NCBI GenBank assembly: GCA_009842645.1
Contig: VYFB01000060.1
Coordinates: forward strand, 13,575-63,620
Source: Nitrospira sp. SB0677_bin_15
GTDB lineage: Bacteria > Nitrospirota > Nitrospiria > Nitrospirales > UBA8639
Direction: 5' to 3'
Length of the DNA stretch: 50,046 nt
A program made the position numbers and the translations under genes. A model generated the notes under the pieces. That model was not told the DNA's origin and made no database searches. It saw only the letters and a list, made by a program, of their open reading frames with translations. Position 1 is the stretch's first letter. The number at the start of each line of letters is the position of its first letter. Of the stretch, positions 14,063-49,340 are shown piece by piece.

Positions 14063-14130
14063 AGGAACCTCTGATTCAGTGCACTATCGGGCGCATGGCT
14101 GCGTTGTGTCCTCGCTCAACCCTCACCTTT
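14063..14130. mobile_element. Truncated copy (about half) of the 144-bp MITE-like element
   Basis: AGGAACCTCTGATTCAGTGCACTATCGGGCGCATGGCTGCGTTGTGTCCTCGCTCAACCCTCACCT matches the full copies at 24677 and 25964. Confidence 0.75.
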
Positions 14131-24486: not shown

Positions 24487-24676
24487 GTGTAAACGCGGAC
24501 CCAAAAGATTACACAAATGAAACAGGACGTTTCCAAACGACTGCGACTATAAAGCACGGCCATGAACCGTCGCAATCGGACAACAAAGCAAGAGAATCAT
24601 AGAAGCCTTCTTTTGTGATTCTTCTTTCCACGGTTTATAATTTTGGGGCAATTGCATGACATGCGGGTATGTGTTC

Positions 24677-24820
24677 AGGAACCTCTGATTAAGTGTGATA
24701 GCGGGATGCAGGGCAAGGCGTCCCGGAGCGAAACCCGAAGCTTATCAGAGAGATAGGTGAGGGTTGAGCGAGGACACAACGCAGCCATGCGCCCGATAGT
24801 GCACTTAATCAGAGGTTCCT
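24677..24820 (+). mobile_element. 144-bp MITE-like element, copy A
   Basis: Perfect 19-bp terminal inverted repeats AGGAACCTCTGATTAAGTG...CACTTAATCAGAGGTTCCT; no coding capacity. Confidence 0.85.
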
Positions 24821-24840
24821 TCACTCATTTGTTGACATCC

Positions 24841-24877
24841 CCCCTCACCCCAGCCCTCTCCCGCCGGGGGAGAGGGA
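24841..24877. repeat. REP-like palindromic repeat in the rpoH 5' region
   Basis: CCCCTCACCCCAGCCCTCTCCCGCCGGGGGAGAGGG. Confidence 0.85.
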
Positions 24878-24899
24878 AAAAACTTCCTGGATCAATAAC

Positions 24900-25964
24900 G
24901 TGATGCCTTCTTCCAAGCAAGACGAGAATATTTCGGGACGGCACCCTTCGACTTCGCTCAGGGCAGGCGCAGGCCGTCCCCTACAAGAGAACGAGCACTC
25001 ATCCCCTATCGAGGCTGAATTCGTTGTCGAACCTGAGGACAAGGAAGAGGTCTCCGAAAACGTTGCGGAATCCGGCGATGATTCCCAGGCCGAGCAAGCC
25101 GAATCCACGGCCCTTGCGCCCACCACGGCATTAGGCCGGTATCTCGTTGAGATCCGTCGCTACCCGTTTCTTTCCAAAGAAGAAGAATTGCAGCTCTTCC
25201 ATGAATATCAGGTCACGGGCAGCCGTGACGCGGCGGTCAAACTGGTCCTGTCCAACCTGCGAGTGTCGGTGGCCATCGCTTCGGAATACGGGCATACCGG
25301 CGCCGACCAAATGGACCTCATCCAGGAAGGGAACGTCGGTCTGATGCAGGCTATCAAAAAATTCGACGTGTCCCGTAACGTCCGCTTCTACGCGTATGCC
25401 GCGTGGTGGGTCAGGGCCTATATCCTCCGGTACCTGTTGCAGTCACATCGACTGGTGAAGATCGGCACAACCCAGGAACAACGAAAACTCTTCTATAACC
25501 TGAAAAAGGAAAAGTCCAAACTCGAACGGGAAGGATTCGTACCGGATGCCAAGCTTCTAGCCGACCGCCTTCAGGTCCGGGAACGGGACGTGCTGGAAAT
25601 GGACCAGCGACTGGGAAGCTGGGAGCTGTCCCTCGACCAACCCATCAGCAAAGACAGGGAGGAAGGGACCTTCCTCGATTTTCTGCCCGCCCCCACGCCC
25701 CGGGTGGACGACACCATCGCGAAGAAGGAATTGATGCTGCTTTTCAGGAAAAAACTCGGAAAATTCTCAAAAACCCTCGATGAGCGAGACGAGGACATCC
25801 TGCGGAACCGGCTGCTATCAGAAACCCCGTTGACGCTTGAGGAAATCGGTCGCAAGTATTCGATTACCAAGGAACGCTCCAGACAGTTGGAAGCCAGAAT
25901 AATCAAGCGGTTGCGTGAGTTCATGAAGGCCGAATTGCAGGATTTCGACGTCTTGCGGAACTAA
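24900..25964 (+). CDS. rpoH: RpoH-like (sigma-32) heat-shock sigma factor
   Basis: Region 2 (GNVGLMQAIKKFDVSRNVRFYAYAAWWVRAYILRYLL), RpoH-box-like QRKLFYNLKK, region 4.2 (LTLEEIGRKYSITKERSRQLEARIIKRLR). Confidence 0.88.
   Translation: MMPSSKQDENISGRHPSTSLRAGAGRPLQENEHSSPIEAEFVVEPEDKEEVSENVAESGDDSQAEQAESTALAPTTALGRYLVEIRRYPFLSKEEELQLFHEYQVTGSRDAAVKLVLSNLRVSVAIASEYGHTGADQMDLIQEGNVGLMQAIKKFDVSRNVRFYAYAAWWVRAYILRYLLQSHRLVKIGTTQEQRKLFYNLKKEKSKLEREGFVPDAKLLADRLQVRERDVLEMDQRLGSWELSLDQPISKDREEGTFLDFLPAPTPRVDDTIAKKELMLLFRKKLGKFSKTLDERDEDILRNRLLSETPLTLEEIGRKYSITKERSRQLEARIIKRLREFMKAELQDFDVLRN
24935..24980. repeat. Nested palindromic repeat inside the rpoH reading frame
   Basis: GGGACGGC-ACCCTTCGACTTCGCTCAGGGCAGGCGCAG-GCCGTCCC, encoding ..GRHPSTSLRAGAGRP.. 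Confidence 0.8.
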
Positions 25965-26107
25965 GGAACCTCTGATTTACTGCACTATCGGGCGCAAGGC
26001 TGCGTTGTGTCCTCGCTCAACCTTCACCTATCTCTATGATAAGCCTCAGGTTTCGCTCCGGGACGCCTTGCCCTGCATCCCGCTATCACATCAAATCAGA
26101 GGTTCCT
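25964..26107 (-). mobile_element. 144-bp MITE-like element, copy B (inverted relative to copy A)
   Basis: AGGAACCTCTGATTTACTGCACTATCGGGCGC...GCATCCCGCTATCACATCAAATCAGAGGTTCCT; the reverse complement aligns along the full length of copy A. Confidence 0.85.
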
Positions 26108-26290
26108 TGAGCCTCCTCACTCCCCTATCCACATTTTTTTTGTTTCCGGAGCTTGACTTCTGAAAAACAGGCCTTACCTGTTACCTTGATAGTTGCATGG
26201 AATCCTCAACCTATCAGGATTTCTGAATATTATTATCCAGTTACCGCACTTCGAGACCCGAGACTATTAACCAAAGGAGGAAGTTGTCAC

Positions 26291-26605
26291 ATGGCCACAC
26301 AAACCAAGGAAAAAGAAGCAACCAAGGGCACGGCGGCCAAAGGCTTTTTGCCACTTGGTGACCGCATTTTCGTGACCTATACGGAAGAACTCGAACGCAC
26401 GGCCGGAGGCATCTACGTGCCGGATTCCGCCAGGGAAAAACCCCAACGTGGAACGGTTGAAGGTGTCGGACGAGACGTCAAATCCCTGAAAGTCGGCGAT
26501 CAGGTCCTCTTCGACAAATATTCCGGAACCAAGATCAGGATCGAAAACGATGACTGCCTGATTCTGAGAGAGGAAGACATCCTGGGCGTCTTCGTCGATT
26601 CCTGA
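26291..26605 (+). CDS. groES: Co-chaperonin GroES
   Basis: KGFLPLGDRIFVTYTEELERTAGGIYVPDSAREKPQRGTVEGVG...GDQVLFDKYSGTKI; AAAGGAGG SD upstream of this ATG. Confidence 0.97.
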   Translation: MATQTKEKEATKGTAAKGFLPLGDRIFVTYTEELERTAGGIYVPDSAREKPQRGTVEGVGRDVKSLKVGDQVLFDKYSGTKIRIENDDCLILREEDILGVFVDS

Positions 26606-49304: not shown

Positions 49305-49340
49305 GCGTGCGACCGATAGTGCACTTCATCAGAGGTTCCT
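49305..49340. mobile_element. Terminal fragment of the 144-bp MITE-like element
   Basis: TGCGTGCGACCGATAGTGCACTTCATCAGAGGTTCCT matches the right end of copy A. Confidence 0.7.

Follow-up and report, generated by a model that had tools for sequence, protein, structure and literature searches.

Two independently inserted copies of an abundant IS5-type MITE most likely account for the inverted repeats around an rpoH-like gene in Nitrospira sp. SB0677_bin_15

The window, i.e., the whole analysed stretch of 50,046 nucleotides of Nitrospira sp. SB0677_bin_15 (contig VYFB01000060.1, positions 13,575 to 63,620), has a G+C content of 54% and contains an rpoH-like gene followed by groES, with one copy of a MITE on either side of the former. 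The features concerned are, in window positions:

14064..14126, minus strand: truncated copy of the MITE family to which copies A and B belong, about 63 bp
24613..24641, plus strand: conserved sigma-70-type promoter of rpoH, TTGTGA-17-TATAAT (10/12 matches)
24674..24677: left target site duplication (TSD) of copy A, TTCA (a single TTCA or TTTA in the empty sites of relatives G001 and G003)
24678..24819, plus strand: MITE copy A, 142 bp, with 17-bp terminal inverted repeats (TIRs), in the rpoH leader (recognised by similarity, folding and TIRs)
24820..24823: right TSD of copy A, TTCA (flank match)
24838..24880, plus strand: REP-like G+C-rich palindrome, dispersed in the genus (dozens of matches in genome G007)
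24903..25964, plus strand: rpoH-like sigma-32 gene, 353 aa, native to the locus (NCBIfam profiles, relatives)
24930..24984, plus strand: in-frame palindromic repeat of dispersed type within the N-terminal coding part of rpoH
25961..25964: left target copy of copy B, CTAA, including the TAA stop (CTAG in G011, CTGA in empty sites)
25965..26106, minus strand: MITE copy B, 142 bp, directly 3' of the rpoH stop (also in G011)
26107..26110: right target copy of copy B, TTGA (flanks and comparison with relatives)
26148..26185, plus strand: conserved block upstream of groES, CTTGACTT...AACAGGCCTTACCTGTT, also read as CTTGACTT...AACAGGYCTTACCT (9 genomes)
26292..26605, plus strand: groES (open reading frame assigned by visual inspection of its sequence and from its position ahead of groEL)
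49309..49340, plus strand: remnant of a MITE terminus, about 32 bp, from the same family

The rpoH-like product scored above the cut-off of NCBIfam model NF005143 and below the own cut-off of TIGR02392 (rpoH_proteo). Upstream of the gene, a TTGTGATTC...TATAAT-like block is present in G011 and in the relatives searched, and copy A begins approximately 36 bp 3' of the -10 element of this conserved predicted promoter, which places it within the rpoH leader and not ahead of it. The block between copy B and groES contains a near-perfect inverted repeat, AACAGGY-CTT-ACCTGTT, in the 9 genomes, and is a possible groESL promoter/operator of the genus. The initial annotation recognised only rpoH and a REP hairpin between the two copies; both are present, but the 5' part of the coding region carries an additional dispersed repeat (24930-24984). 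This in-frame repeat, which is reminiscent of the Rickettsia palindromic elements found in open reading frames, has 31 matches in the own genome and is absent from most relatives, with a shorter version in G001. The rpoH leader itself (24652-24900; loci L062-L069 and L075) holds a different repeat in each of several species of the genus (REP-like, CCTCCCC-type, or A/B-type MITE sequences), and is apparently a position that attracts or tolerates repeats.

As proposed in the initial annotation, copies A and B lie in opposite orientation on the two sides of rpoH and align end to end without gaps, with 134 of 144 positions identical. The 144-bp span was correctly located, but the element itself measures 142 bp, GGAACC...GGTTCC (in full GGAACCTCTGATT...AATCAGAGGTTCC), and the outermost bases (A and T) are flanking target, one per end. 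The coincidence of the start of copy B with the final base of the TAA codon was likewise real, in that the left target copy of B ends on this base; it results from a T/A-rich 4-bp target overlapping the stop codon, an arrangement that was seen at other sampled copies as well. The unit is short and lacks coding capacity, and its designation as MITE-like was borne out: it ends in TIRs, most full copies are flanked by 4-bp TSDs, it recurs in high copy number alongside an autonomous IS with matching ends, and the corresponding sites of relatives are empty.

The similarity between A and B goes far beyond chance, as the best match in the similarity search had an E value of 2e-70 and the matches listed included 40 full-length or near-full-length copies. 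Exact 13-bp termini occur 233 times in the own genome (2.55 Mb), 116 in forward and 117 in reverse orientation, and the reversed control pattern had no match there; consequently, the unit recurs many times elsewhere in the genome, with at least 117 elements. The copy census, which combined the searches with 20 chosen stretches and the window (390 kb in total), yielded 48 copies or remnants, a density that is biased because the stretches were picked for holding copies, and 46 of these were situated between open reading frames that were called crudely by length, so that gene contexts, which included convergent, tandem and divergent gaps alike, are approximate. Among the near-full-length copies in the sampled stretches, the 4-bp flanks matched perfectly for 19 of 31 and at 3 of 4 positions for another 7 (26/31 in total). 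Variants of 169 and 194 bp (L014, L025 and L029) carry 27-52 extra bases near one end. Searches with the element gave no match in a plasmid collection, and no Rfam family scored above the gathering score, a single chance match being far below threshold.

Of the 13 further genomes of the genus, 10 contain the MITE; the 46 additional genomes from its family and order gave no match, and a 296-genome sample of the phylum returned, outside the genus, one weak match of 74% only. As far as searched, the family is thus confined to a single Nitrospirales genus. Many contigs start within approximately 60 bp of a MITE terminus, which indicates that the elements probably fragment these assemblies. The genomes of the genus range from 1.9 to 3.0 Mb, and in genome sizes and in the G+C content of the window the genus is near the sponge-associated 'Ca. 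Nitrosymbion' (2.36 Mb, 56.9% G+C; PMC11812461), a resemblance that serves as a lead.

A full-length IS with the same termini, which the initial annotation had suggested looking for, was found in the own genome by a PF01609 search (G000:C105, L041 1014-2178). This intact element of 1165 bp is flanked by the TSD TTTA/TTTA, its TIR (GGAACCTCTGATTAAGT) matches that of the MITE at 17 of 17 bp on both sides, and it carries a single transposase open reading frame of 313 aa with DDE_Tnp_1 and DUF772 domains. The transposase belongs to the IS5 family (NCBIfam NF033581, 312 bits versus a cut-off of 140), and the closest named transposase (91%) comes from a MAG of the Nitrospirales. Another copy of the IS has lost internal sequence and retains its left end together with a portion of the transposase (L042, G000:C69). 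The partner IS resembles the IS5 family in its single transposase open reading frame, its TIRs and its 4-bp T/A-rich TSD, and TIRs resembling the GGAACCTCTG type, along with 4-bp duplications of the CTAA kind, are found in related IS from other phyla; compared with the YTAR target of the IS5 group, TTTA is not a strict match and the MITE targets are looser still. The 142-bp MITE differs from the IS in that it codes for nothing and has only TIRs of 17-20 bp in common with it; the MITE interior displayed no similarity to the 1165-bp IS beyond these termini, and descent of the MITE from the IS by internal deletion is therefore not supported beyond the TIRs. A comparable relation is known for the RUP element of Streptococcus pneumoniae, a MITE thought to be mobilised by IS630-Spn1 (PMC2229807), which is similarly short, has about 100 intergenic copies and shares its TIRs with one autonomous IS of the same genome (PMC2229807), but which, compared by description, depends on another transposase family and a TA target. 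The IS5-type transposase would mobilise the Nitrospira MITE in trans by acting on its GGAACCTCTGATTAA ends, and transposition would duplicate a 4-bp, T/A-rich, YTAR-like target.

The comparison of the rpoH-groES region with that of relatives, as proposed in the initial annotation, revealed that both insertion sites are empty in their rpoH loci. At the site of A, G003 reads GTATGTGTTTACTCATTTG and G001 reads GTATTCACTCATTC, versus GTGTTCA-[A]-TTCACTCATTTG in the own genome; at the site of B, G003, G005, G001 and G013 read GGAACTGAG or AAACTGAG, versus GGAACTAA-[B]-TTGAG. The nearest genome, G011, has B at the same site with CTAG on its left and TTGA on its right, and lacks A. Copy A was thus found in the own genome only and copy B in two genomes only, from which it follows that B predates the divergence from G011 and A postdates it. 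The flanks of B (CTAA/TTGA, from CTGA) have decayed and no longer form an exact TSD, so that its insertion history rests on the CTGA empty sites and on G011. The stop codon of rpoH was changed from TGA to TAA or TAG but was retained as a stop. In this reconstruction, B inserted first, at the TGA codon that ended rpoH in the ancestor shared by the own genome and G011, and A followed in the own lineage only, in the rpoH leader. A protein search gave the impression that rpoH is absent from G011, but loss of the gene was rejected, as contig C63 breaks off within it and contig C6 begins within it, with approximately 0.7 kb missing, i.e., an assembly gap.

When 117 elements are placed at random, 6.0 +/- 2.3 neighbour pairs at least as close as A and B are expected per genome, 3.0 of which are inverted, and the bracketing of rpoH therefore needs no special cause. 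Taken together, A and B are best explained, at a probability of roughly 0.94, as members of a single abundant, non-autonomous MITE family that inserted independently of each other and would be mobilised in trans by the IS5-family transposase, without a role of the pair around rpoH. In this reading, A and B would also be transcribed, as long hairpins, in the 5' and 3' untranslated regions of the rpoH mRNA, where they may be subject to RNase III-type processing or may stabilise the 3' end. Other bacterial MITEs are cleaved by RNase III when present in transcripts, or alter mRNA levels (PMC10969869, PMC2229807), which makes an effect of A or B on rpoH expression possible by analogy. The Correia elements (NEMIS) of Neisseria, which measure 107-155 bp and whose TIR hairpin is transcribed with neighbouring genes, provide the model for such processing (PMC10969869, PMC2229807); they differ from the present MITE in family and target.

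Among the alternatives, domestication of A and/or B as regulators, retained because their hairpins control the rpoH mRNA through RNase III processing, 3'-end stability or A-B pairing, survives best and is nevertheless unlikely. Hairpins spanning almost the whole element are predicted on both strands of both copies (for A, -78 and -66 kcal/mol for the two strands). Pairing is retained in 98% of cells in the comparison of 40 distinct copies, with double changes mainly at pair 14:129, near the TIR, and some at 16:127. However, the latter pair is broken in 14 of the 40 copies, and pairing follows automatically from a palindromic MITE, so that its retention in such a transposable element is not evidence of RNA function. 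Moreover, the presence of A in one genome and of B in two argues against long-term conservation at rpoH, as does, against a regulatory role in general, the indifference of the sampled copies to the type of intergenic gap. The A and B transcripts are also mutually complementary, and in the lowest-energy structure predicted for the full transcript A is paired with B, the duplex being predicted at -274 kcal/mol versus approximately -131 kcal/mol for two separate hairpins. Such a duplex could zip the rpoH 5' leader to the 3' untranslated region, so that the mRNA forms a loop, becomes open to attack by RNase III and heat-shock control is altered in this one lineage, a model that we consider very improbable.

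Inverted repeats such as A and B, of 142 bp, approximately 93% identical and 1.15 kb apart, are a possible substrate for RecA. Homologous recombination between them that inverts rpoH relative to groESL, and so switches it off or on, is nonetheless hardly to be expected: rpoH lies beside groES, native and uninverted, in the relatives examined, and gene order and orientation are conserved across the genus (rare inversion isomers being invisible in an assembly), inversion would sever the gene from its conserved promoter, and the perfect TSD of A pairs the outer with the inner flank, identifying the present orientation as parental. It is equally doubtful that the elements insulate rpoH from its neighbours as transcription terminators or promoters; although the hairpins are strong and B directly follows the stop while A precedes the gene, neither hairpin is followed by a T-run, no terminator-like site was predicted at A or B, and A would separate rpoH from its own conserved promoter. 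The composite transposon, in which two like inverted elements jointly mobilise rpoH as cargo, can practically be dismissed, since each copy sits in a target site of its own, with a perfect TSD in the case of A, the outer flanks differ (TTCA versus TTGA) and hence form no common outer TSD, the two were inserted at different times with B but not A common to G011, and the cargo gene is native, other species of the genus keeping rpoH by groES without either element.

Our literature searches for MITEs at rpoH or in Nitrospira found nothing relevant, and this very active IS5-type MITE family is one of which no description was found. The case documents such a family in one Nitrospirales genus; its occurrence on both sides of rpoH is coincidental and does not warrant interpretation as a unit of regulation or mobility.
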